From contig DUOI01000039.1 of NCBI GenBank assembly GCA_012838915.1, forward strand, positions 1 to 40,701: DNA of 40,701 nucleotides, written 5' to 3'. This DNA is from Clostridiales bacterium. Its GTDB lineage: Bacteria > Bacillota > Clostridia > Caldicoprobacterales > DTU083. The notes beneath the pieces are model-generated. The model saw only the letters and a list, made by a program, of their open reading frames with translations, was not told the origin of the DNA and did not search any database. Every line of letters starts with the position of its first letter. Position 1 is the first letter of the stretch. Both the position numbers and the translations under genes were made by a program. Below, in pieces: positions 25,058 to 38,900 of the stretch.

Positions 25058-25888
25058 ATGCCCTGCACCCCGGAAGAAAAGCAAAGGCTGCAGAAAATTG
25101 CCCGGGATCTGCGTCTCACAATTATTGATGTGATGGCCTGGTCGGGCGGAGCCCATGTAGGCGGCTCCTTAAGTATTGTTGAGTTGTTGACCGCGCTTTA
25201 CTTCAAGTACCTCAACGTCGATCCGGAACAGCCCTGGTGGGAGGACCGGGACCGCTTTGTGCTGTCTAAAGGCCATGGAGCTGCCGGTTTCATTCCTGTG
25301 CTGGCCAAACGCGGATTCATCCCTGAAGAAGAGCTTAAGACCTTTAACCACTTTGGTTCTCCATTTGCCATGCATCCTGACAGCAACAAAATTGTAGGCT
25401 GCGACGCTTCCACCGGCAGTCTTGGCCATGGGTTGTCCATGGCAGTAGGCATGGGCCTGGGTGCCCGCTATCTGAAGAAGGAGTTTAAAACAGTATGTCT
25501 TTTGGGTGACGGCGAGTGCTGTGAAGGCAGTGTATGGGAAGCAGCTATGGCACTGTCAAACTTCAAGCTTACCAATGTCATTACAATAGTAGACCGCAAC
25601 CGCCTGATGATTGACGGATTCACGGAAGATGTGATGGCTCTGGAGCCCTTCGCAGACAAATGGCGCTCCTTCGGATTGGAGCTTATTGAGATTGACGGCC
25701 ATGATTTTGACCAAATCTGCGAAGCGCTGGATAAGGCATGGAATGCAAAGGAAAAACCCGTAATCATCCTCGCCAACACCGTAAAAGGCAAAGGCGTCGA
25801 TTTTATGGAAAACAATGTGGTATGGCATTATGCCTCAGCCGACTCCGAGCTGTGTGAGAAGGCAAAGGCATCCATACTGAATTCATAG
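25058..25888 (+). CDS. Transketolase, N-terminal (TPP-binding) subunit
   Basis: The protein has 276 residues, the usual size of a split transketolase N subunit. Seen: SKGHGAAGF, STGSLGHGLS with the conserved catalytic His, and the TPP/Mg motif beginning GDGECCEGSVWEAA and ending at an Asn in VDRN. The site carries Arg-Asn where Asn-Asn is commoner. Start: ATG after AAAGGAGGAG. It is the first gene of a six-gene operon, 17 bp before the C-terminal subunit. Split transketolases serve pentose phosphate metabolism, but several work on modified sugars (apulose-4-P, sulfofructose), so the in vivo substrate is open here. Confidence 0.93.
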   Translation: MPCTPEEKQRLQKIARDLRLTIIDVMAWSGGAHVGGSLSIVELLTALYFKYLNVDPEQPWWEDRDRFVLSKGHGAAGFIPVLAKRGFIPEEELKTFNHFGSPFAMHPDSNKIVGCDASTGSLGHGLSMAVGMGLGARYLKKEFKTVCLLGDGECCEGSVWEAAMALSNFKLTNVITIVDRNRLMIDGFTEDVMALEPFADKWRSFGLELIEIDGHDFDQICEALDKAWNAKEKPVIILANTVKGKGVDFMENNVVWHYASADSELCEKAKASILNS

Positions 25889-25905
25889 GGGAGGGAGGAA
25901 AGATT

Positions 25906-26919
25906 ATGTCTACAGTAACCGGAACAACATGGAATTGTTATGATTCAGCTACAATGACCCCGCGGGAGATATACGGACGTACATTGGCAGAAATGGCAAA
26001 AACCAACGATAAGATTGTGGGTTTAACCGCTGACCTTGCAAAAACCACCGCTATCGTACACTTTGCTGACGCTTTCCCTGACAGGTTCTTTAATGTGGGT
26101 ATTGCAGAGCAAAATTTGTTTGGAGTTGCTGCCGGCCTGGCCAAGGTTGGACTGATACCCTTTGCCTCTACAATGGCAGTATTTGCAAGTATGCGCGCCT
26201 GCGAACAAGTACGGACTGACATTGCATACCAAAACCTCCCTGTTAAGATTATCGGTACCCATGCGGGCATTTCATTCGGCCATGCAGGCACAACCCATCA
26301 TTGTACGGAAGACCTTGCCATTATGCGTTCCATTGCCAATATGACCGTCATATGCCCGGCAGACGGCACCGAAACTTCCCTTGCAGTACGCGCCTGTCTG
26401 GATATACCTGGCCCCGTATATATTCGTATCGGCCGCGGGTTCGAGCCTCCATGCTATCCCGACGAAAACTATGGCTTCACCATCGGCAAAGCTATTGAGA
26501 TGGTACCAGGCACCGACATTACGATTATCTGCTGCGGCATTGCAGTGCTGCAGTCGATTCAGGCTGCCAAGACACTGCTAGAGCAGGACGGTATCAGTGT
26601 TCGTGTTATCAATATGCATACCATCAAACCCATTGATAAGGAAGCAATCCTCAAAGCGGTTAAGGAAACCCGCCGCATTTTAACCATAGAAGAGCACAAT
26701 GTGGAAGGCGGACTTGGGGATGCGGTAGCCGGTGTCATTGCTGAAAGCGGTATGGGCTGCGTATTCAAGAAACACGGCTTAAATGATGAATTTGCCACCA
26801 TCGGTTACGCGGAAGATCTCTACACCCATTATGGATTGGACGCAGACGGTATCGTTGATCAGGTACGCAGTTTGATGGGCAGAGAATACGAGGCAGACGA
26901 GGACTGGGAAGACGAATAA
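25906..26919 (+). CDS. Transketolase, C-terminal subunit
   Basis: The protein has 337 residues. Seen: pyrimidine-binding domain with catalytic Glu in VGIAEQNLFG, MAVFASMRACEQ, THAGISFGHAGTTHH, and the C-terminal transketolase fold (TIICCGIAVLQSIQAA, INMHTIKPIDKEAI, EEHNVEGGLGDAVAG). It has a slightly longer N-terminal and acidic C-terminal tail (EADEDWEDE) than typical. It pairs with the preceding gene to form the alpha2beta2-type enzyme. Start: ATG after GGGGAGGGAGG. Confidence 0.93.
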   Translation: MSTVTGTTWNCYDSATMTPREIYGRTLAEMAKTNDKIVGLTADLAKTTAIVHFADAFPDRFFNVGIAEQNLFGVAAGLAKVGLIPFASTMAVFASMRACEQVRTDIAYQNLPVKIIGTHAGISFGHAGTTHHCTEDLAIMRSIANMTVICPADGTETSLAVRACLDIPGPVYIRIGRGFEPPCYPDENYGFTIGKAIEMVPGTDITIICCGIAVLQSIQAAKTLLEQDGISVRVINMHTIKPIDKEAILKAVKETRRILTIEEHNVEGGLGDAVAGVIAESGMGCVFKKHGLNDEFATIGYAEDLYTHYGLDADGIVDQVRSLMGREYEADEDWEDE

Positions 26920-26958
26920 ATTAAAAGACCTCATTCCAATTTGAAAGGAGTGTTGAAA

Positions 26959-27741
26959 TTGTCTGCTACCACCCAAGACTTAATGATTGCCAGGCTTTTC
27001 TTCAATGCGGCTTTTCCTGTCATGCAGGTGTTATTAGATGACGATCCAAAGCTGCATAAAGCATTTGCAAACTTCACAGCTACCGTGCAATTCGGAGCCA
27101 GAAATGATGATAAGCTGGTGGCTTGTACATTGAAATTCGACAATGGGCAAGTTGAGGTAATACAGGCTCCTGCGGAAAGCTATGATCTGGCCCTGACCTT
27201 CCCTTCAGTCAGCAAAATGAATGCCCTGCTGCGCGGTGGTCTTGCCCTGCCCGGCATTAAGGGCAACATATTGCTGCTGCCCAAGATACTTAAACTGCTG
27301 ATGGGGCTTATGATCATGTCTCCCAAAAAGAAACCCAGGGACTATGATAAACAAAAGCTTAAGGTAAAGTGCAGTCTTTACATGATAACACGGGCACTGT
27401 CAACATATAACAAGCTTGGAGATCCGGACATGCACGAGTGGTGCCTGCGCCAACCCGATCGCATATACCAATTCTCAGTGGAACCCTATCCTGAAACAGG
27501 CATTGCATGCTATTTGCGGGTTAAAGCCGGCAAATCCAAATCCGGCCACGGCGTGTACACACGTCGCAGCCCTTTTGTTCACTTCCACTTTTTAAGTGTG
27601 GAGGGAGCTATAAAGGTACTGCAAAAAGAGGTGCCATTCGTGCGGGCAGCCGAGCTGGGCTATATTGAAACCATAGGCAGCCCGGAGTATGCAGTGCAGC
27701 TAAACGACTTCATGGCAATCCTGCAGTCCATGCTGACATAG
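26959..27741 (+). CDS. SCP2-like hydrophobic-ligand domain protein (unassigned)
   Basis: The protein has about 260 residues. Seen: the N-terminal half has the SCP2 pattern, a helix (ARLFFNAAFPVMQVLLDDDPKL), strands with FNG-like turn (LKFDNGQVEV), a short DLALTFPSVS strand, and an inserted hydrophobic helix-rich piece (GGLALPGIKGNILLLPKILKLL). The C-terminal half is a separate beta-rich region (YQFSVEPYPETGIACYLRV). SCP2-like folds bind lipids or acyl chains, which would suggest a hydrophobic substrate for this operon, but the match is by pattern only. Start: TTG at 26959, 8 nt after AAAGGAG; the longer TTG start (26941) overlaps the ribosome site. Confidence 0.65.
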   Translation: MSATTQDLMIARLFFNAAFPVMQVLLDDDPKLHKAFANFTATVQFGARNDDKLVACTLKFDNGQVEVIQAPAESYDLALTFPSVSKMNALLRGGLALPGIKGNILLLPKILKLLMGLMIMSPKKKPRDYDKQKLKVKCSLYMITRALSTYNKLGDPDMHEWCLRQPDRIYQFSVEPYPETGIACYLRVKAGKSKSGHGVYTRRSPFVHFHFLSVEGAIKVLQKEVPFVRAAELGYIETIGSPEYAVQLNDFMAILQSMLT

Positions 27742-27756
27742 GAAAGGAGGGCTTAT

Positions 27757-28968
27757 ATGAAGAGTGTATATTTTGAAAAGGATATCCCGCGTATCCTGAT
27801 CACCAAATTTGCAGCCAAGTGCTTCAAACCACTATTATATACCGGACTGAACGCAGTTAAATACAATAAAAATCTGCCTGATCCTCCCCTGCCTGCAGAT
27901 GATTGGCTGAGGGTGCGCAACATCGTCTCCGGCCTGTGTGGTACGGATGTAAGCTTTTTCTTAGCCACAACCAGCACCAACTCTGCCCTGGAGCCCATCC
28001 CGGTGTCCAATCGCACCTACCTGGGACACGAAAACGTGGGGGTTGTGGTTGAAACAGGCAAGGCAGTGACAAAATTCAAAGTGGGTGACAGGGTTACCAT
28101 ACGGGAGTATATGTCAGGCTGCGGCAACAAGGGCATAAAACCTCGCTGCAGATACTGTGAGGAGGGTAACTATAATTTATGCCTGAATTACGGGGAACCC
28201 AGCCCTTATGAACTGCCTGATACCGGCGCCGGCTGGAGTGATACCTTTATAGCGCCGGAACAGCAGCTGACAAAAATATTTGATGAATTGACTGATGACC
28301 AGGCAGTAATGGTGGAACCCGCCTGTGTCTCCATACATTCGGTGCTTATGGATCCTCCGGCTTCAGGCGAGAAGATAATGGTCCTGGGTTGCGGTACCAT
28401 TGGGCTGGGCATTGTGCAAGCTCTTAAAATCATACAGCCCGATTGCCAGGTATGGGTAATGGAGCGCATGAAGCCAAAGCAGGAATTTGCATTAAAACTC
28501 GGTGCGGATCATGTACTGACAGGCGATCCTTATGAAGCCGCATCCAAAGCTACAGGCGGCAGCCGTGTATACACGGGTATGGGCGGCAACAAAATGTTCT
28601 TTGGCGGCTTCGACCGCATATATGATTGCGTTGGCGGCAACTGGTCCAATCACACCTGCCTGAGACTGCTTGCACCCCGAGGCACCCTGATTAAGGTAGG
28701 TCACCATATGCGTGGTGTGAAGTTTGATGAGACGCCTGTCTGGTGGCAGGAATTGAAGCTTATAGGTATTGATGCCCACGGAATGGAGGAATGGCAGGGG
28801 CGAAGGCTGTATACATTCGATCTCGCACAGGAGTGGATTCGCGACGGCTTGTATACAACAGAAGGCTTTATAACCCACCGCTTTCCCCTGGACGACTATA
28901 AGAAGGCCTTCAGGCTTGCATTGCAAAACCCGCCGGACCTTATAAAAATCGTATTGGACTGTAATTAA
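27757..28968 (+). CDS. Zinc-dependent medium-chain dehydrogenase
   Basis: The protein has 403 residues. Seen: catalytic zinc-site residues in GLCGTD and YLGHENVG, four cysteines of the structural zinc site in GCGNKGIKPRCRYCEEGNYNLC spaced through residues ~122-143, NAD-binding VLGCGTIGLGIVQALK, and a Zn-alcohol dehydrogenase C-terminal half. It oxidises or reduces an alcohol/carbonyl pair. The substrate is unknown. The threonine/sorbitol-dehydrogenase side of the family is the nearest in style. Start: ATG after AAAGGAGGG. It ends only 2 nt before the regulator's ATG. Confidence 0.92.
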   Translation: MKSVYFEKDIPRILITKFAAKCFKPLLYTGLNAVKYNKNLPDPPLPADDWLRVRNIVSGLCGTDVSFFLATTSTNSALEPIPVSNRTYLGHENVGVVVETGKAVTKFKVGDRVTIREYMSGCGNKGIKPRCRYCEEGNYNLCLNYGEPSPYELPDTGAGWSDTFIAPEQQLTKIFDELTDDQAVMVEPACVSIHSVLMDPPASGEKIMVLGCGTIGLGIVQALKIIQPDCQVWVMERMKPKQEFALKLGADHVLTGDPYEAASKATGGSRVYTGMGGNKMFFGGFDRIYDCVGGNWSNHTCLRLLAPRGTLIKVGHHMRGVKFDETPVWWQELKLIGIDAHGMEEWQGRRLYTFDLAQEWIRDGLYTTEGFITHRFPLDDYKKAFRLALQNPPDLIKIVLDCN

Positions 28969-28970
28969 CC

Positions 28971-30122
28971 ATGACCGGTAAAAGTGAAACAAGGGGACTT
29001 TTAAAGATCAGTGAACTGGCCAGAGCCTCAGACGTAAGCGTTTCCACATTGAAGTTTTATGTCAAGGAGGGTCTTATTCCTATTGCTAAAAAGACAAAGC
29101 GAAACATGGCTTATTACCATCCGGACTGTATAAAAAGTGTGAGGCTTATCAAATATCTTCAAAAAAATCGCTATTATCCTCTGGCTGTTATAAAACGCCT
29201 GCTGGAGCAAGGCAAACCGGATTTGGCGGAGCTTGAGCTGTACGATGCCATCTACAAGGTAGAGCATACGGCAGCTCACCCTCCCCTAACCATTACAGCT
29301 GCCATTCGGCAATCCGGATTAAGCCGGGAGCAAATAAAACAACTGGAAAAGGCCGGCGTTATCTCATCCTTTAAAATGAATGGGAAACTCATGTTCCGGG
29401 ATTTCGATTGCCGAATCATGCAGCTTGTCAAGCGCAGGCAGGAAGCCGGTTTTACATTCGAACAAACCCTGCATGCCTTTACAGCTTATGAAAGAGCATT
29501 GAATGAAGCAGTAAAGGCAGATATTGATTCGGTAATTTCTGACGTTCTCATGCCCAAGTGCCCGAATACGGAGGAAATAGTGCATATGATCCGCGTCTCC
29601 GATGAAACCCTTGATGATTTCGTATCACTGCGCCGCTATTACCTCAACAGCAAATACGGCTCACATCATATTGAAAATGTTTCAAAGTTTTCAGCTGGAT
29701 TGAAAAGCTTTTTGTTATCAGTGCATAGTTTTATTTCAAGCACGAAGCATCACGCCCTTTGTACCAATACCCTGAAAGGAATACCTCTTGAAGGGGACGG
29801 TTATGCAATTAAGGCATTACGGTCATATTCATCGGTCATCCATCTTTCTGAAAAAGGACTGGCTGAATGTATATCGGTATGCAGTCAAGCTCATCACTTC
29901 TTTGTCTCCCTTTATGCTTCAGCAATACCCAAAACAGAGCTGGCTTTGCTTCTTGCATTGCGTCTTGGATGGCTGACGCTGGTCCCGGAAGTGCTGCTTA
30001 GCCAGCCTCTTACACAGAAAGCCAAACGGAGAGCTGTAACAGAATTAAAACAACTGGCTGAAACCGGGGTGTGTGATTCCACCTTCCCTAATCTCGTTGA
30101 ACAAGCATTGAAAGGAGTATGA
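28971..30122 (+). CDS. Regulator with two tandem MerR-type helix-turn-helix domains
   Basis: The protein has 383 residues, about twice the usual MerR size. Seen: the first MerR domain at ~10-80 (LLKISELARASDVSVSTLKFYVKEGLI, then KSVRLIKYLQKNRYYPLAVIKRLL). A second MerR-like unit lies at ~106-170 (ITAAIRQSGLSREQIKQLEKAGVI, then RDFDCRIMQLVKRRQEAGFTFEQTL). A helical ~200-residue C-terminal effector region follows with no recognised ligand motif. It sits inside the operon with the dehydrogenase stop 2 nt upstream and no clear ribosome site, so translational coupling is likely. Candidate target: the 27-bp palindrome before the operon. Confidence 0.85.
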   Translation: MTGKSETRGLLKISELARASDVSVSTLKFYVKEGLIPIAKKTKRNMAYYHPDCIKSVRLIKYLQKNRYYPLAVIKRLLEQGKPDLAELELYDAIYKVEHTAAHPPLTITAAIRQSGLSREQIKQLEKAGVISSFKMNGKLMFRDFDCRIMQLVKRRQEAGFTFEQTLHAFTAYERALNEAVKADIDSVISDVLMPKCPNTEEIVHMIRVSDETLDDFVSLRRYYLNSKYGSHHIENVSKFSAGLKSFLLSVHSFISSTKHHALCTNTLKGIPLEGDGYAIKALRSYSSVIHLSEKGLAECISVCSQAHHFFVSLYASAIPKTELALLLALRLGWLTLVPEVLLSQPLTQKAKRRAVTELKQLAETGVCDSTFPNLVEQALKGV

Positions 30123-30123
30123 T

Positions 30124-31488
30124 ATGAGTATTGAGAGTATCGTTGCAAATCAGCGGGCTTACTTCTCTTCAGACGCAACCAAACCAATAGCATTTCGCCT
30201 GGATGCACTGAAACGCCTGAAAAGAGCGCTTCAACAAAATGAGCACAAACTCTGCAGGGCACTGAAAGCAGACCTTAATAAGGATGAAATGGAAGCCTAT
30301 ATGACGGAAATTGGAATAGTGCTGGAAGAATTGAGCTTTCACATCAAACATATAAGAAGATGGGCTCGTCCCAAAACAGTGCCCACACCATTGGCACAAT
30401 TCCATGGAAAGAGTTTCATACTGCCTGAACCATATGGAGTAGTGCTGATAATTGCTCCCTGGAATTATCCCGTTCAACTATGTCTTACGCCTCTGATAGG
30501 TGCAATTTCAGCAGGAAATTGTGCGATAATCAAGCCTTCCGCATATGCCCCTGCTGCCAGCCGTGCCATAGCAGAACTTATTGAATCCGTTTTCCTTCCG
30601 GAATACATTGCGGTGGTGGAAGGCGGACGGAAAGAAAACAGTGACCTTTTGAAGCAAAAATTTGACTATATTTTCTTCACGGGCAGCCCCGGGGTAGGCC
30701 GTGTAGTAATGGAAGCCGCATCAAAGCACCTTACACCTGTAACGTTGGAGCTGGGCGGCAAGAGTCCGGTCATTGTAGACAAAACAGTGGATCTGAAGCT
30801 TGCTGCCCGCCGCATTGCCTTTGGCAAGGTAATCAACGCAGGCCAAACCTGTGTGGCACCTGATTATATTCTCATCCACAGGGATATACGGGATGAATTT
30901 ATTGAGTATTTTCGTGAAGCGCTGGAAGCCTTCTTCCCGGAGGGCGATATGAGGAATATGCCGGTTATTGTTAACGAAAAGCACTTTAAGCGGGTTTCCG
31001 ACTTGATCAACAGCGGTAAAGTGGTCATCGGCGGGAGTGTAGATGAATCACGCCGATTCATTGAGCCTACCGTACTGGTGGATGTTTCTCCGGATTCCCC
31101 GGTTATGAATGAGGAGATTTTCGGACCTGTTTTACCGGTGCTTACCTACCAACAGCTTGAAGAGGCGATAGACTTTATCAATTCCCGGCCGAAGCCCCTG
31201 GCACTATATATATTTACAAAGGATAAACACACAGCCAATACCGTGCTGACGCGTACGTCCAGCGGCGGTGCATGCTGGAATGATACTATTATACACCTGG
31301 CTACCACCAGGATGGGCTTCGGCGGCGTTGGAGAAAGCGGCATGGGAAGCTACCATGGCAAGCATTCATTTGATACATTCACTCATTATAAAAGCATCGT
31401 GAAAAAATCCATCTTCATCGACCTGCCTATGCGCTATCATCCCTATACAGAGAAGAAGCTGGGGCTCATACGCAAATTCATGAAATAG
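30124..31488 (+). CDS. Aldehyde dehydrogenase, ALDH3 (fatty aldehyde)-like
   Basis: The protein has 454 residues. Seen: NAD-binding Asn114 (APWNYP), general-base Glu209 (TLELGGKSPV), catalytic Cys243 (NAGQTCVAPDY), GEEIFGP-like NEEIFGPVLPVL and the C-terminal MGSYHGKHSFDTFTHYK. The short N-terminus and basic, hydrophobic C-terminus (KKLGLIRKFMK) fit the ALDH3/YwdH group, which oxidises medium- and long-chain or aromatic aldehydes with NAD(P). It starts 1 nt after the regulator's stop, after AAAGGAG. It is the last gene of the operon, followed by a strong terminator. Confidence 0.93.
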   Translation: MSIESIVANQRAYFSSDATKPIAFRLDALKRLKRALQQNEHKLCRALKADLNKDEMEAYMTEIGIVLEELSFHIKHIRRWARPKTVPTPLAQFHGKSFILPEPYGVVLIIAPWNYPVQLCLTPLIGAISAGNCAIIKPSAYAPAASRAIAELIESVFLPEYIAVVEGGRKENSDLLKQKFDYIFFTGSPGVGRVVMEAASKHLTPVTLELGGKSPVIVDKTVDLKLAARRIAFGKVINAGQTCVAPDYILIHRDIRDEFIEYFREALEAFFPEGDMRNMPVIVNEKHFKRVSDLINSGKVVIGGSVDESRRFIEPTVLVDVSPDSPVMNEEIFGPVLPVLTYQQLEEAIDFINSRPKPLALYIFTKDKHTANTVLTRTSSGGACWNDTIIHLATTRMGFGGVGESGMGSYHGKHSFDTFTHYKSIVKKSIFIDLPMRYHPYTEKKLGLIRKFMK

Positions 31489-31497
31489 AGTTTTACA

Positions 31498-31560
31498 TGA
31501 CGGCAACCTCTGTCAGCGCATAGGATATATATGCGGCTGCCTGGTTGCCGTCCTTTTTTT
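31498..31560 (+). terminator. Intrinsic terminator of the transketolase operon
   Basis: ACGGCAACC (31500-31508) pairs with GGTTGCCGT (31543-31551), with an inner GCGCAT/ATGCGGC-type arm, followed by eight T. A strong hairpin right after the aldehyde dehydrogenase stop. Confidence 0.92.
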
Positions 31561-31749: not shown

Positions 31750-32595
31750 ATGAGTGCTGGAACAATATTTGATATAAATGAGTTTGCCATATATGACGGC
31801 CCAGGCATCAGGCAGACCGTCTTTCTTAAAGGCTGTCCCCTGAGGTGCAGCTGGTGTCATAATCCCGAAGGTCAGAATCCAAGTCCGGAATTGATGATAA
31901 ACAAGGCATCATGTATATCATGCGGGCATTGTAAAAAGGTATGCAACAATGAAAGCTGTATTGCATGCGGCAAATGTGTTTCATACTGTCCCTTGAATCT
32001 TCGCAAGATATGCGGTGAGTTGTTAACAGCAAAAGAGCTTGCTGAGTATATAAGAGATAAAAGCGATTATTATGCCAACTACGGAGGCGGGGTAACTTTC
32101 ACCGGCGGTGAACCTTTAATGCAGCCGCAATTTTTAGCTGAAACGCTCTCATTGCTGCCCGATATCCATACAGCAATTGAAACTTCCGGTTATGCAGACA
32201 ATAAAATTTTCAATTCCATTATACAACTAATTGATTATGTAATAATGGATATAAAGTTGGTTGATAGCAGCCTTCATCTAAAGTATACAGGTGCAGAAAA
32301 TAAAATAATACTTGAAAACCTGGCATCATTATGCAGTAGTAACAAGAAGTTTGTGGTACGTATCCCTGTCATTCCCGGGGTAAATGACAACAAAACGGAA
32401 TACAGCGCTGTTGCAGAACTGGTAAAAGATGCACCATTGCTTGAAAGAGTAGAACTTCTGCCATACCATAAAACTGCAGGAGCAAAGTACGAAATGATCA
32501 ATAGAAAATATACTCCTATGTTTGATGTTAATCGCCCGGTTTTTATAGATCAGGAGGTTTTCTCACAATACGGAATAAGGAGTGTAGTTTTATGA
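31750..32595 (+). CDS. Glycyl radical enzyme activating enzyme (radical SAM)
   Basis: The protein has 281 residues. Seen: GRE-activase start TIFDINEFAIYDGPGIRQTVF, radical SAM Cys29-x3-Cys33-x2-Cys36 (CPLRCSWC), an inserted two-cluster ferredoxin domain with Cys55/58/61/65 and Cys70/73/76/80 (CISCGHCKKVC and CIACGKCVSYC), GGEP in TFTGGEPLMQ, and the C-terminal VVRIPVIPGVND. It uses SAM and an electron to abstract hydrogen from the Gly of its partner. It overlaps the start of the partner gene by 4 bp (ATGA), so they are coupled. The ferredoxin domain is somewhat short. The ribosome site is weak (GCGGGG). Confidence 0.96.
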   Translation: MSAGTIFDINEFAIYDGPGIRQTVFLKGCPLRCSWCHNPEGQNPSPELMINKASCISCGHCKKVCNNESCIACGKCVSYCPLNLRKICGELLTAKELAEYIRDKSDYYANYGGGVTFTGGEPLMQPQFLAETLSLLPDIHTAIETSGYADNKIFNSIIQLIDYVIMDIKLVDSSLHLKYTGAENKIILENLASLCSSNKKFVVRIPVIPGVNDNKTEYSAVAELVKDAPLLERVELLPYHKTAGAKYEMINRKYTPMFDVNRPVFIDQEVFSQYGIRSVVL

Positions 32596-34667
32596 GAAAA
32601 CGGATAAAAGATTTACGAAAGTTTTTTGTTTACGATAAAGCTCACCATTCCTGCAGGCAAAAGCCATGTGATCCCATGCTGCTGGCATCAGAATTCCAGC
32701 GAAATAATACTTCAGACACAGATAGGGCAGTTGTACGACTGAAATATACGCTGGATAATGAGAAACCAGTTGTGTTTAGAAATGAAAAAATAGCCTTGAT
32801 GCGTACTATACCTAATCCCCCGGAACTTTTCACAGAAGAGGAAATGGAGGCAATAAAGACATCACATCGAATTCATGAACGAGGTGAAGTCTGTAACATA
32901 AATGTTGATTACTCAATGCTGCTTGATATGGGGTTTAATGCAAAGCGCAGGGAAATATCAGAGTCCATTAAAAAATTCCAAGGATGTAATGACGCTGCCT
33001 CTGTTCATTACCTTGAGCAGCTGATCTCTATCCTGGACTCGGTTGAAACCCTTGCGAAAAGATACAGGATAGAGGCTGAAAAAGTTGGCAACATGGTTGT
33101 TGCTGAAAACTTTGCCCATATTCCGGAAAATCCCCCGGCCACTTTTCTGCAGGCTTTACAGATGCTTCGTCTGCTGCATTTCACCATGTGGTGCGGAAAC
33201 AACTATCATAACACCCTCGGACGCTTTGACCAATATATGTATAAATATCTAAAAAATGATATGGATAAAGGATTGCTGGATTATGATGATGCACTTGAGC
33301 TTGTGGAAGAATTCTTTCTATCCCTGAATCGGGACAGTGACCTGTATCCCGGCATGCAGCAGGGTGATAACGGGCAGAGTCTGGTTTTGGGCGGTTTGAA
33401 TGAAGACGGCTCTGACAGTTATAATGTGCTCTCGGAAATCTGCCTTAAAGCCAGCCTTGAGTTAAAGTTAATAGATCCAAAAATAAATTTACGAGTAAGC
33501 AAAAATACACCAATTGAGCGTTATATACTGGGCTCGCAGCTTACTAAGCAAGGGCTGGGTTTCCCCCAGTATTCAAATGATGATGTAGTAATTGATGGGT
33601 TAATCAGGCTTGGATATGATAAGAAAGACGCTTATAATTATGTTGTTGCAGCCTGCTGGGAATTTATAATTCCCGGACGGGGAATGGACATTCCGAACAT
33701 AGACGCCCTGTCATTTGTAAAAGCAGTTCAAGATGCAACTTTTGAGAAGCTCGGGCATAGCAGAAATTTTGAGGAATTCTTAAGCTTTGTAAAGGAGAAT
33801 ATCAGAAAACAGGCTGATGAAATCTGCGAAAATACAAAAAATCTTTATATATTCCCTTCCCCCTTCATTTCCCTCATGATGGAAGGCTGTGTGGAAAATG
33901 CAAAGGACATTTCTATTGGCAATCGATATAATAACTATGGAATACATGGAACTGGCATTTCAACTGCAGTTGATTCGCTGGCCTCAATAAAAAAGTATGT
34001 TTTTGAAACCGGTGAAATCAGTGCTGAAACAATTATTAAAGCCTTAAAAAATAATTTCAATGATTATGAGCAGATTCGAAACAAACTCAGGTATGAGGCC
34101 CCGAAGTTTGGAAATGACGATGATTATGTAGACAGCATAGCTGTTTCACTTTTAGACTCCTTTGCAGAATCATTGCATAATAGGAAGAATGAACGCAATG
34201 GTATTTTCCGTCCGGGGACCGGGTCTGCAATGTATTATATCTGGCACTCAAAGAAAACTCCCGCTACCCCGGACGGAAGGGACAGCGGCGAGGAATTTGC
34301 AGCGAACTACTCACCAAGCATGTTTGCCCGATTAAAAGGGCCGATTTCCATTATAAAATCATTTACCAAACCTGATTTAAAAAAGGTAATCAATGGAGGG
34401 CCCCTCACTCTTGAACTGCATGATACTGTCTTTCGTACCCCCGAGGCTGTTTCAAAGGTTGCAATGCTGGTAAAATCCTTTATAGACCTTGGCGGCCATC
34501 AATTACAGCTGAACTCTGTAAACCGTGATACCTTGCTTGACGCTCAGAAAAACCCTGAGAAATATCGAAACCTGATTGTCAGAGTTTGGGGTTGGAGCGG
34601 ATATTTCGTAGAATTGAGTAAGGAATACCAGGATCATATAATTAAGCGTGCGGAATTGAGCATATGA
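32592..34667 (+). CDS. Glycyl radical enzyme, unassigned substrate
   Basis: The protein has 691 residues, shorter than most dehydratase or lyase members (about 780-850). Seen: conserved body motifs GQSLVLGGLNEDGSD and LRVSKNTP, a catalytic loop with Cys355 followed by Trp356 and Glu357 (VAACWEFIIPG), the ATPDGR motif (~558-563), GGHQLQLN, and the C-terminal glycyl loop RVWGWSGYF with Gly667. Known: eliminase-type GREs (glycerol, propanediol, hydroxyproline dehydratases, choline lyase, sulfite lyases) carry Cys-x-Glu, while pyruvate formate-lyase carries Cys-Cys. The Cys-x-Glu here suggests an elimination or C-X cleaving reaction. The short N-terminal half suggests a different substrate pocket. 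I cannot name the substrate. Confidence 0.95.
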   Translation: MRKRIKDLRKFFVYDKAHHSCRQKPCDPMLLASEFQRNNTSDTDRAVVRLKYTLDNEKPVVFRNEKIALMRTIPNPPELFTEEEMEAIKTSHRIHERGEVCNINVDYSMLLDMGFNAKRREISESIKKFQGCNDAASVHYLEQLISILDSVETLAKRYRIEAEKVGNMVVAENFAHIPENPPATFLQALQMLRLLHFTMWCGNNYHNTLGRFDQYMYKYLKNDMDKGLLDYDDALELVEEFFLSLNRDSDLYPGMQQGDNGQSLVLGGLNEDGSDSYNVLSEICLKASLELKLIDPKINLRVSKNTPIERYILGSQLTKQGLGFPQYSNDDVVIDGLIRLGYDKKDAYNYVVAACWEFIIPGRGMDIPNIDALSFVKAVQDATFEKLGHSRNFEEFLSFVKENIRKQADEICENTKNLYIFPSPFISLMMEGCVENAKDISIGNRYNNYGIHGTGISTAVDSLASIKKYVFETGEISAETIIKALKNNFNDYEQIRNKLRYEAPKFGNDDDYVDSIAVSLLDSFAESLHNRKNERNGIFRPGTGSAMYYIWHSKKTPATPDGRDSGEEFAANYSPSMFARLKGPISIIKSFTKPDLKKVINGGPLTLELHDTVFRTPEAVSKVAMLVKSFIDLGGHQLQLNSVNRDTLLDAQKNPEKYRNLIVRVWGWSGYFVELSKEYQDHIIKRAELSI

Positions 34668-34821: not shown

Positions 34822-35589
34822 ATGGCAGATTGGAATTCAGCACAATACTTAAAGTATGAGAAAGAACGTACACAGCCAGCAATAGATTTAGCCAATCGGA
34901 TTTCTTTGGACAACCCGAAGAGAATTATTGATGTTGGCTGTGGACCAGGAAACAGTACGAGGGTTTTGGCAAGTAAGTTTTCAGATGCGTATATACTTGG
35001 CGTCGACAAATCTGAAAATATGATTTCCTCGGCAAAGATGAATTACCCAAACCTTGATTTTAAGTTGTGTGACATTAGCAGCGAAATCTCTTCGTTAGAC
35101 AGAGACTTTGACATAGTATTCTCAAATGCATGTATCCAGTGGGTGCCAAATCACAAAATACTTTTAAAAGAACTAGTTGGTTTGTTGAGTAAAGGCGGTA
35201 TCCTGGCTATCCAGATTCCCATGAACTACAATGAACCTATACATAGAATTATTAAGGAAGTAAGCGCATCACAAAAGTGGAAAGAACATTTTTCAAACCC
35301 GAGAATTTTTTACACCCTGTCCCCAGGTGAATATTTTGATATATTATCCGAGATCTCTGATTATATTAATATTTGGGAAACTGTGTATTACCATACCATG
35401 GGAAGTCATAATGACATCATGGAATGGTACCGCGGCACAGGATTGAGACCTTATCTTGATGTTTTAGAAGATGAGAAAAAAGCAGAGTTCGAAAATGAGA
35501 TTATGGAGCGTATAATTGAAAGCTATCCTAAACAGAAAAATGGACAAATAATCTTCAGATTTCCAAGGTTATTTTTTACTGCATATTGA
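34822..35589 (+). CDS. SAM-dependent methyltransferase, Tam (trans-aconitate methyltransferase)-like
   Basis: The protein has 255 residues and is a class I methyltransferase. Seen: motif I RIIDVGCGPGNSTRVLA, acidic end of strand 2 ILGVDKSENMI, DFDIVFSNACIQWVPNH (the post-motif typical of Tam, W in IQW), and GGILAIQIPMN. The N-terminal WNSAQYLKYEKERTQPAIDL also fits Tam. Known: Tam methylates trans-aconitate, an inhibitor of aconitase, but many homologues methylate other small acids. Start: ATG after AGAGGTG. It has its own promoter. Confidence 0.9.
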   Translation: MADWNSAQYLKYEKERTQPAIDLANRISLDNPKRIIDVGCGPGNSTRVLASKFSDAYILGVDKSENMISSAKMNYPNLDFKLCDISSEISSLDRDFDIVFSNACIQWVPNHKILLKELVGLLSKGGILAIQIPMNYNEPIHRIIKEVSASQKWKEHFSNPRIFYTLSPGEYFDILSEISDYINIWETVYYHTMGSHNDIMEWYRGTGLRPYLDVLEDEKKAEFENEIMERIIESYPKQKNGQIIFRFPRLFFTAY

Positions 35590-36578: not shown

Positions 36579-38381
36579 TCAATCTCCTATCCAGAAGTAC
36601 AAGAGCCCCTTCTCTCCATCCGGCAGTTCAACATAAAAGCAGTTTAGAGTCCGGTCATCCGGGCTTATATGAATATCCAGCAGCTTTACCTTCGTTTCTT
36701 TAAATTCTCTCAAAGTCTCTGAGTCCCACACCATATATTCAAAATAGTCTTCGGGATTAATATCTAAGGGTACAAAAAAGCCGGTTCCGTCAACTTCATA
36801 AGTTTTACCTTTGTATTGTTCCACATCATGGTTCGTTATGACATATTCATTGTTCTTAAATTCTCCCAATGCGGAAAAGAATTGCGGTTTGAAGATATCA
36901 GTCATGTGAAACCATGATATGAATTTTCCCTGCCCATCCATTAGTGCATATCGATCTATTGTACCTACGGTATACAGCTTTGTACCATCATAGCGGATAA
37001 ATGTAAAAGCAGGATCTCCACTTGCCCCATCGTCAAAAATTGCAACTTCGGTATAAGCATCCCTGCTGTCCAAATCAATAATTTTCGCTGCACCTGTTGG
37101 GTTGTAGAAATTTAATTCCACTTTCATACCATTAACCTCAATATAGGAACCATCCTTATTATCCGCTATTAATACAGCATTTATGCTGTCTGCTTCGCCA
37201 TCCCCATTTAAGTCATATGTGCCATTAATACTATAAACCCGATGATTCCATTCCAAATCTCCGTCATATGATACATCAAAAGTATAATCTTTAATATACT
37301 CATCTATTTCCGAAAAACTTTCAATTATATTCCCCATATCATTAGCAACCCTTACCCTTAACTCCTGGCTGCCGGCTTGAGTCATTGCTAACGGAATGCT
37401 TCCCCCAGGTCCATTGTCACTGTTAATGATCTCAATGAAATCTTTGTCCCCTGGATTTGTCAGTAGTCCTATTCCTATTACAAGGGCAAATAATACGGAG
37501 ACCAAGGTAACCCAAAAAGCAGGCTTTTTATAGTTCAACACATTTTTAATTCTCCATTCTATATTACCCTCGCTAAAGGCAATTGGACTTCCGTTTAGAA
37601 TATGACTTCCAGCAGCAAGGGATAACAATGAGCTAGCATAAGGTTTTTTAATTTCTTCATCCATTTCTTTTAGTACTCTTTCATCACAGGAAAGCTCCAT
37701 ATCTATACTCATTACTATATATGCAATCCATACAAGGGGATTAAACCAGTGGATAGACAATACTAAGAAAGCTAACATCTTAATGATATGGTCTTTTCGA
37801 TTAATATGGGTCTGTTCATGCAGCAATATATAGTCTCTTTCATCAACGTTAAGACCAACCGGTAAGTATATCTTTGGTCTTATTAATCCAAACACAAATG
37901 GTGTTTTCAGATTCCTGGCTTCGAAAATGTTCTTTTCTATTAATTGTGCGCCTTTAAGCTGCCTTTTTAAAATCAAGATGGATACAAAGCTGTAAATAAG
38001 CAGTGCTATTATGCCTAATATCCAGATATATGCCCCTGTTTCTATAAAAACCTGCAATGGATTTACACTGGCACCAGTGGTTGGAGTAAGAAGTGATTCA
38101 CTTGTGACAGCATCGAGTACTCTTATTCCACTATTAATCTGTGGACTTTGCTGATAGGTGATCCCACTGGGGATTGGAACCGTACTCGTTTTACGTGGCA
38201 AAAGACTATAAACACTATTAAATGAGAATGGAATCAGCAGGCGAAAAGCAACCACACTCCATAAGGCATAGGAGATAACCTTTGGAGCCCTTTTAAGCAT
38301 CAGTCGGATAAGGACTACAATAAGGATTACATAGCTGGCCGTAATGCTCATATTCAAAACGGAAAGAAATAGCTTACCCAT
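36579..38381 (-). CDS. M56-family BlaR1-like membrane protease with atypical sensor domain
   Basis: The protein has 600 residues. Seen: membrane helices at about 5-27, 37-55, 116-137, 203-222 and 289-307, and a zinc-protease motif His188-Glu189-x-x-His192 (HEQTH). The downstream Glu229 lies in MELSCDE, the standard BlaR1/MecR1 arrangement. The extracellular C-terminus (~310-600) does not show the penicillin-binding Ser-x-x-Lys domain of BlaR1. It has instead a beta-rich region with a calcium-loop-like DLNGDGEADS. Known: such proteins sense a signal outside and cleave BlaI. The inducer is unknown here. It lies 2 nt after blaI-like stop, after AAGGAGG. Confidence 0.9.
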   Translation of the reverse strand: MGKLFLSVLNMSITASYVILIVVLIRLMLKRAPKVISYALWSVVAFRLLIPFSFNSVYSLLPRKTSTVPIPSGITYQQSPQINSGIRVLDAVTSESLLTPTTGASVNPLQVFIETGAYIWILGIIALLIYSFVSILILKRQLKGAQLIEKNIFEARNLKTPFVFGLIRPKIYLPVGLNVDERDYILLHEQTHINRKDHIIKMLAFLVLSIHWFNPLVWIAYIVMSIDMELSCDERVLKEMDEEIKKPYASSLLSLAAGSHILNGSPIAFSEGNIEWRIKNVLNYKKPAFWVTLVSVLFALVIGIGLLTNPGDKDFIEIINSDNGPGGSIPLAMTQAGSQELRVRVANDMGNIIESFSEIDEYIKDYTFDVSYDGDLEWNHRVYSINGTYDLNGDGEADSINAVLIADNKDGSYIEVNGMKVELNFYNPTGAAKIIDLDSRDAYTEVAIFDDGASGDPAFTFIRYDGTKLYTVGTIDRYALMDGQGKFISWFHMTDIFKPQFFSALGEFKNNEYVITNHDVEQYKGKTYEVDGTGFFVPLDINPEDYFEYMVWDSETLREFKETKVKLLDIHISPDDRTLNCFYVELPDGEKGLLYFWIGD

Positions 38382-38383
38382 TA

Positions 38384-38746
38384 CTACACCTCCTTGTGCT
38401 CATCAATCAGTCTTTTCAACTCTTCTGCTTGTTTTTTACTTAATTTTTTTTCTCTCATAAATGCTGTTAAAAATCTAGGTAAAGACCCTCCAAAAGTATC
38501 CTCAACGAAACGGATGCTTTGCTTTGCATGGTATTCATTCTTAGTGATTAAAGATGAAACTACAGCATTTTCATTTCTGAATATCCCTTTTTCACACAGT
38601 TTTTTCAGCACAGTATAGGTAGTGGATTTCTTCCAGTTCATTTCCTTTTCGGACAGCTTTACCAGATCACCAGAAGCAATAGGTTCGTTCTGCCAAATAA
38701 TATTTGCGAACTTCTCTTCACTTTCTGTAAGTTTATATTCTTTCAT
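38384..38746 (-). CDS. BlaI/MecI/CopY family repressor
   Basis: The protein has 120 residues. Seen: the winged helix with LTESEEKFANIIWQ, WKKSTTYTVLKKLCEKGIFRNE (the recognition helix and wing), then the dimerisation/cleavage part (SIRFVEDTFGGSLPRFLTAF). It represses its own operon until the partner protease cleaves it (known for BlaI). Start: ATG at 38746, 7 nt after AAGGAGG; upstream in-frame codons lie across the promoter. No beta-lactamase or copper gene is adjacent, so the regulated target is not visible. Confidence 0.94.
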   Translation of the reverse strand: MKEYKLTESEEKFANIIWQNEPIASGDLVKLSEKEMNWKKSTTYTVLKKLCEKGIFRNENAVVSSLITKNEYHAKQSIRFVEDTFGGSLPRFLTAFMREKKLSKKQAEELKRLIDEHKEV

Positions 38747-38760
38747 GATAAACCTCCTTG

Positions 38761-38815
38761 GTCTATAATTGGTCGACCTTACTGTTAGTCTATGTGTTAT
38801 AGACCTATTTGTCAA
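38761..38815 (-). promoter_or_regulatory. Promoter and dyad operator of the BlaI/BlaR1-like operon
   Basis: On the minus strand: TTGACA (38815-38810), 17 nt, TAGACT (38792-38787). Between and over the -10 lies the perfect dyad GTCTAT-5 nt-ATAGAC (38788-38804). A further GTCTAT half-site is at 38761-38766, next to the ribosome site. The layout suits autorepression by the BlaI-like protein; it differs from the TACA/TGTA core of bla/mec operators. Confidence 0.75.
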
Positions 38816-38900
38816 TACCAATTCTATTAAAAATTTATTAAATGTGAAAGAAATTTTTTTATGCGTTTTTTTACTATTGCACTGGGCTGGTTAATGGTAT

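Follow-up and report, generated by a model that had tools for sequence, protein, structure and literature searches.

A short, uncharacterized subfamily of glycyl radical enzymes recurrently associated with sugar utilization genes

A glycyl radical enzyme (GRE), one of an oxygen-sensitive type of radical enzyme, and its activating enzyme are encoded side by side in the 40,701-nucleotide stretch of Clostridiales DNA analyzed here (the window; assembly GCA_012838915.1, contig DUOI01000039.1). An earlier note on this DNA suggested that the GRE catalyzes an elimination and may belong to an uncharacterized subfamily, and our results support sharpening that suggestion to a sugar-associated eliminase subfamily. 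We propose that the pair forms a two-gene C-O eliminase system that acts on a free aldose, with aldopentoses such as L-arabinose as the most likely candidates, a reading to which we give an even chance. Its parts differ in strength: elimination chemistry is well supported by the sequences of the family, a sugar substrate is moderately supported by the gene neighborhoods of homologues, and the exact sugar and product go beyond what these data support, both of the products proposed below coming from chemical reasoning.

The activase gene comes first (positions 31,750 to 32,595, plus strand; 281 amino acids) and overlaps by 4 bp the GRE gene on the same strand (32,592 to 34,667; 691 amino acids). 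The activase carries Pfam Radical_SAM and Fer4 domains and scores 288.8 bits against TIGR02494 (cut-off, 174). Its translation contains a CxxxCxxC motif and two ferredoxin-type (4Fe-4S) C-x2-C-x2-C-x3-C motifs, corresponding to the two extra clusters described previously; two such motifs are ordinary in activases other than those of pyruvate formate-lyase. The GRE, assigned from Pfam matches, alignments, a tree, and an AlphaFold2 model, has all the marks of the superfamily, namely, PFL-like (PF02901; E = 1e-99) and Gly_radical (PF01228; E = 7e-20) domains, both above their cut-offs, Cys355, Gly667, and a match to the GRE fold. The predicted catalytic loop is Cys355-Trp356-Glu357 (33,654 to 33,662), in which, by homology with the class, Cys355 would carry the thiyl radical and Glu357 would act as the acid/base. 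An ATPDGR motif can be read at residues 558 to 563 (34,263 to 34,280), and Gly667 (codon at 34,590 to 34,592), the predicted glycyl radical site, lies within R-V-W-G-W-S, all on the plus strand. These marks of an active GRE were thus found where the earlier note had placed them, and they are conserved across the family.

A search of 61 related genomes recovered a group of proteins sharing 47 to 87% identity with the window GRE, and the long matches to other GREs did not exceed 36%. In the genome collection, loci matching two peptides with almost no variation within the family yielded at least 530 relatives; we studied the 80 nearest to the query protein together with up to 10 kb of flanking DNA on either side. 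The family is widespread in gut, rumen, and digester bacteria, with hundreds of loci, and includes members of the Bacillota, Bacteroidota, Spirochaetota, and Verrucomicrobiota, among them isolates of Hungatella, Eisenbergiella, Robinsoniella, and Parabacteroides. In a quick maximum-likelihood tree, 81 family sequences formed one clade on a long branch with 100% support, apart from YbiW, PflD, and PflB of Escherichia coli and from HypD. Most members are 686 to 694 amino acids long, and in 73 loci the GRE gene has an activase gene next to it, without exception in the same orientation.

Signatures of the clade are A-C-W-E-x-I and R-[VI]-W-G-W-S. The Cys, Trp, and Glu of the catalytic loop are identical in 81 of 81 aligned members, WGWS with its glycine is present in 80 of the 80 that reach this position, and A558, G562, and R563 of ATPDGR are invariant. 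Conservation of Cys355-Trp-Glu357 and Gly667 across the family excludes chance and decay as explanations of these motifs. Reference enzymes have Cys-Val/Ile-Glu (eliminases) or Cys-Cys-Val-Ser (PflB) in the catalytic loop and (A/S)-G-Y-(S/A) in the glycyl loop, versus WGWS in this family. Because the short length and both motifs are traits of the clade, the combination of a 691-residue enzyme with Cys-Trp-Glu, singled out in the earlier note, is not a quirk of the window protein, and the tryptophan is, as judged from the alignment, a family signature. The suggestion that Cys-x-Glu points to an elimination likewise gains support, since the motif is kept in every aligned member.

NCBIfam cut-offs, identities to PDB entries, and the tree all ruled out isofunctional identity with a known GRE. 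No NCBIfam equivalog came near its cut-off, and identity to solved GREs was 20 to 29% in structural alignment, with none at an isofunctional level. According to a recent paper, the identity threshold that divides most GREs of different function lies above 40 to 50% (PMC11528403), and we therefore see no ground for assigning a known function to the window GRE. Clustering with a characterized family was looked for against the references at hand and was not found; the subfamily is a monophyletic clade whose nearest characterized or solved relatives share ~20 to 36% identity with it. A review points out that no function is known for many abundant GREs (PMC11574389). Literature drawn mostly from outside the subscription journals, searched for links of GREs to arabinose and pentose use, gave no paper on this family; an earlier report may exist elsewhere.

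Individual candidates were rejected on specific grounds. Pyruvate formate-lyase does not fit, as the Cys-Cys pair is missing (Ala354-Cys355) and the TIGR01255 score is 95.4 bits (cut-off, 994). HypD shares Cys-x-Glu, eliminase chemistry, and a homologous activase (275.7 bits), but the window GRE reaches only 322.8 of the 1,100 bits required by NF043068, has other pocket residues, and falls in a separate clade. CutC (choline TMA-lyase) and HpsG/HpfG (sulfopropanediol enzymes) are GRE eliminases of the same fold, but the window GRE scores 262 to 275 bits against cut-offs of 1,000 to 1,050 (266.3 bits for CutC model TIGR04394; cut-off, 1,050), and no CutC reference over the cut-off was found among the relatives. 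The aminoacyl radical enzymes, functionally unassigned GRE-like proteins that lie closest to the eliminases, have Ala, Ser, or Thr in place of the glycine (PMC11528403); they were ruled out by the glycine kept in every family member that reaches the position.

An AlphaFold2 model built with 53 family sequences had a pLDDT of 93 and a pTM of 0.92. Its nearest folds (VIA-align) were tied at Z scores of 39.7 to 40.1 and comprised E. coli PflD, an Archaeoglobus GRE, glycerol dehydratase, and a streptococcal PflD with 1,5-anhydromannitol-6-phosphate (this ligand is bound in structure 8id0, and the titles of 8id0 and 8id7 add to the precedent for GREs acting on cyclic polyols). The best PDB sequence match was the B12-independent glycerol dehydratase of Clostridium butyricum (1r8w/1r9d). 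Its Cys433/Glu435, His281, Ser282, and Asp447 align with Cys355/Glu357, His206, Asn207, and Asp366 of the window GRE, and His281, Ser282, and Asp447 reportedly bind the diol in the 1r9d work. The two proteins differ in length (787 versus 691 residues), share 25 to 29% identity, and differ at Tyr640 (Gly544 in the window GRE) and His164 (Asn102); this low identity and these two replacements set the window GRE apart from the B12-independent glycerol and 1,2-propanediol dehydratases. Residues invariant in this family only include D259, Q262, D295, K297, N369, N448, H452, T606, and E608, and hardly any variation across the four phyla is seen in the catalytic loop or at the probable pocket positions. 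With seven of these polar residues (D259, Q262, N369, N448, H452, T606, and E608) and with Gly544 at the Tyr640 position, a larger polyhydroxylated substrate would fit, and from the alignment we read the site as a putative diol-type eliminase pocket with space for a larger, hydroxyl-rich substrate.

The gene neighborhoods of homologues point to sugars. We clustered the open reading frames of 86 loci, 84 of which contain a family GRE, and annotated cluster representatives; some labels (LacI, RbsC, ABC permease, and GntR) come from reading the sequences rather than from family searches. A sugar transporter was present in 54 of the 86 loci and an arabinofuranosidase-family gene in 23 (GH51 in 14 and GH127 in 14). 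The 15 GH127-family genes compare with ~0.9 expected, a rough figure based on how dense such genes are in six family genomes; the loci are not independent. The share of sugar-related genes was 37% within 4.5 kb of the GRE and 18% beyond that distance, neighboring genes being statistically non-independent as well. Directly adjoining the GRE were RbsA/RbsC monosaccharide ABC transporters, XylE-type porters (found in 17 loci and immediately downstream in 14 of these), LacI/GntR regulators, GalM (present in 11 loci), GH51 (alpha-L-) and GH127 (beta-L-arabinofuranosidase) families, FucI-like isomerases, xylulokinase, class II aldolase, and aldo/keto reductase. In many gut and digester bacteria, the neighbors of the family serve the import and release of plant sugars such as arabinose.

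Most of these neighbors would supply L-arabinose, and D-xylose comes next. One locus (L097) holds L-ribulose-5-phosphate 4-epimerase and an AraA over the NCBIfam cut-off, another (L106) has the same genes by similarity, and a third (L070) has XylA and XylB over their cut-offs. Elsewhere, the contexts include GH78 and GH106 rhamnosidases, GH88/105, GH4, and GH36-like genes, which point to plant-wall sugars rather than to one sugar and suggest that substrates may differ between subclades. In Bacteroidales units, only a porter, a mutarotase, and glycosidases lie beside the GRE. In several loci, small DUF4867 or ureidoglycolate-lyase-like (PF04115) proteins adjoin the GRE pair (L056:12078-12719, L086:12073-12690, L071:8628-9119, L076:8561-9058, and, by sequence start only, L057:8647-9135), and these could act on the GRE product. 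One locus encodes a second GRE of 793 amino acids in tandem behind the family GRE (L089:3501-5882), whose C-terminal loop (VRIHGTFVNF) is unusual; XylB and PfkB genes come after it.

The absence of a neighbor that would give away the substrate, as the earlier note had it, holds within the window only. Its further statement that no dehydrogenase lies beside the GRE was incorrect: an aldehyde dehydrogenase gene (30,124 to 31,488, plus strand) ends 261 bp upstream of the activase gene, and Zn-alcohol dehydrogenase and MerR regulator genes precede it on the same strand. The aldehyde dehydrogenase gene is separated from the GRE pair by a terminator-like hairpin with a T tract (31,499 to 31,560, plus strand), with a 10-bp perfect stem, a minimum free energy of -29.6 kcal/mol, a z score of -3.8, and equal stability in none of 200 shuffles; the sequence 3' of the stem is CTTTTTTT. 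Because of this strong hairpin and T tract, the GRE pair is probably a separate operon in the window genome. In a sister genome (L037; same genus, 86% identity), the same aldehyde dehydrogenase gene lies ~70 bp before the activase gene, and inspection of that gap revealed no obvious terminator hairpin.

The tight plus-strand run that ends in the window's hairpin (25,058 to 31,488) consists of a transketolase split over two genes, a 266-amino-acid open reading frame without a Pfam or NCBIfam match, and the Zn-alcohol dehydrogenase, MerR, and aldehyde dehydrogenase genes. Downstream of the pair are a methyltransferase near trans-aconitate 2-methyltransferase (34,822 to 35,589; 285.6 bits versus a cut-off of 297) and a BlaR1-type M56 peptidase sensor (36,579 to 38,821), followed by a short open reading frame that may encode a BlaI-type partner. 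We dropped the window's own neighbors as a guide to the substrate, as the terminator-like hairpin separates the upstream operon from the pair and neither the methyltransferase gene nor the BlaR1-like gene downstream seems related to it. The window genome (2.18 Mb, 97% complete) encodes 15 RbsA-type monosaccharide ABC ATPases and five GREs; GH51, GH127, and AraA were not found in it, and no sugar gene adjoins the GRE pair. The pentose assignment of the window protein is therefore borrowed from its relatives.

By homology with the class, the activase would use S-adenosylmethionine to generate a radical on Gly667, which would pass to Cys355, and the resulting thiyl radical would take a hydrogen from a hydroxyl-bearing carbon. 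Glu357 and the His206/Asn207/Asp366 set would handle protons while the neighboring C-O bond breaks, and Cys355 would then give the hydrogen back. From the homologue neighborhoods, the substrate would be an unphosphorylated aldose freed from plant cell wall glycans; that it is free is suggested by GalM, the sugar porters, and the minimal Bacteroidales units. In this reading, the enzyme probably uses radical chemistry to take an oxygen atom off a plain sugar, which no other GRE is known to us to do. Most speculatively, a cyclic aldose would undergo 1,2-elimination at C1/C2 to a 2-deoxy-aldonolactone, the main alternative being a ring-opening cut like that of PflD/YbiW. An SMP-30/gluconolactonase-like gene adjoining the GRE in three loci (L059, L076, and L083) is compatible with such a lactone and lends it thin support. 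It is possible, with the chances against it, that the family dehydrates free cyclic aldopentoses (L-arabinose and its kin) in this way, providing four phyla with a radical entry to anaerobic sugar catabolism that needs neither isomerase nor kinase.

Several observations count against the aldose reading: the arabinose genes missing from the window genome, the lack of any sugar gene adjoining the pair there, the varied glycosidase contexts of the relatives, the Asn102 at the position of His164, and the AraA/AraD or XylA/XylB route held by some loci, since the GRE would be redundant there for that sugar. An improbable alternative is that the GRE acts later in a pentose pathway on a small 1,2-diol or hydroxyaldehyde (e.g., ethylene glycol from glycolaldehyde), as diol dehydratases do. 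The glycerol-dehydratase-like diol residues would suit such a role, as would the FucI-like isomerase, xylulokinase, and class II aldolase genes adjoining the GRE in L074 and L095, the isomerase and aldolase in L065 and L081, and the aldehyde dehydrogenase gene that precedes the pair in both the window and L037. Yet the Bacteroidales units have a porter, GalM, and glycosidases but no aldolase, no microcompartment genes were recognized in the locus maps, and Gly544 suggests a larger pocket.

We give comparably little credence to a C-O lyase that would open the ring of anhydro-sugars or pyranoses, working as YbiW/PflD do but on unphosphorylated substrates. These E. coli and Streptococcus enzymes cleave anhydrohexitol phosphates, a precedent for GRE action on a cyclic sugar-like polyol (PMC12441222). 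They share with the window GRE the fold (PflD Z score, 40.1), Cys-x-Glu, with a following IPGR common to the window GRE and PflD, and a cyclic polyol substrate, known for them and only proposed for this family. However, identity is 26 to 28% in structural alignment, their motif is Cys-Ile/Val-Glu rather than Cys-Trp-Glu, they are ~75 to 120 residues longer, and their substrate is phosphorylated. In addition, the window GRE lies outside their clades in its own fully supported clade, the alignment shows neither His206 nor Asp366 in PflD, and no phosphotransferase system (PTS) genes were recognized beside the GRE in the locus maps. It is also conceivable, though unlikely, that the family is heterogeneous, acting on sugars or sugar acids that vary by subclade, the window member's substrate not being a pentose. 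The varied glycosidase contexts (GH78, GH88, GH4, and GH36-like) and the lack of arabinose genes in the window genome favor this, but the near-invariance of catalytic-loop and probable pocket residues across four phyla speaks against it.

GREs carry out consequential reactions in the anaerobic gut, acting on choline, hydroxyproline, and isethionate. The coherence of the present family, its recurrent carbohydrate setting, and its unusually uniform active site make its substrate a directly testable question. If the free-aldose reading is true, radical chemistry on a sugar that carries no phosphate would open a new way into the fermentation of plant fiber.
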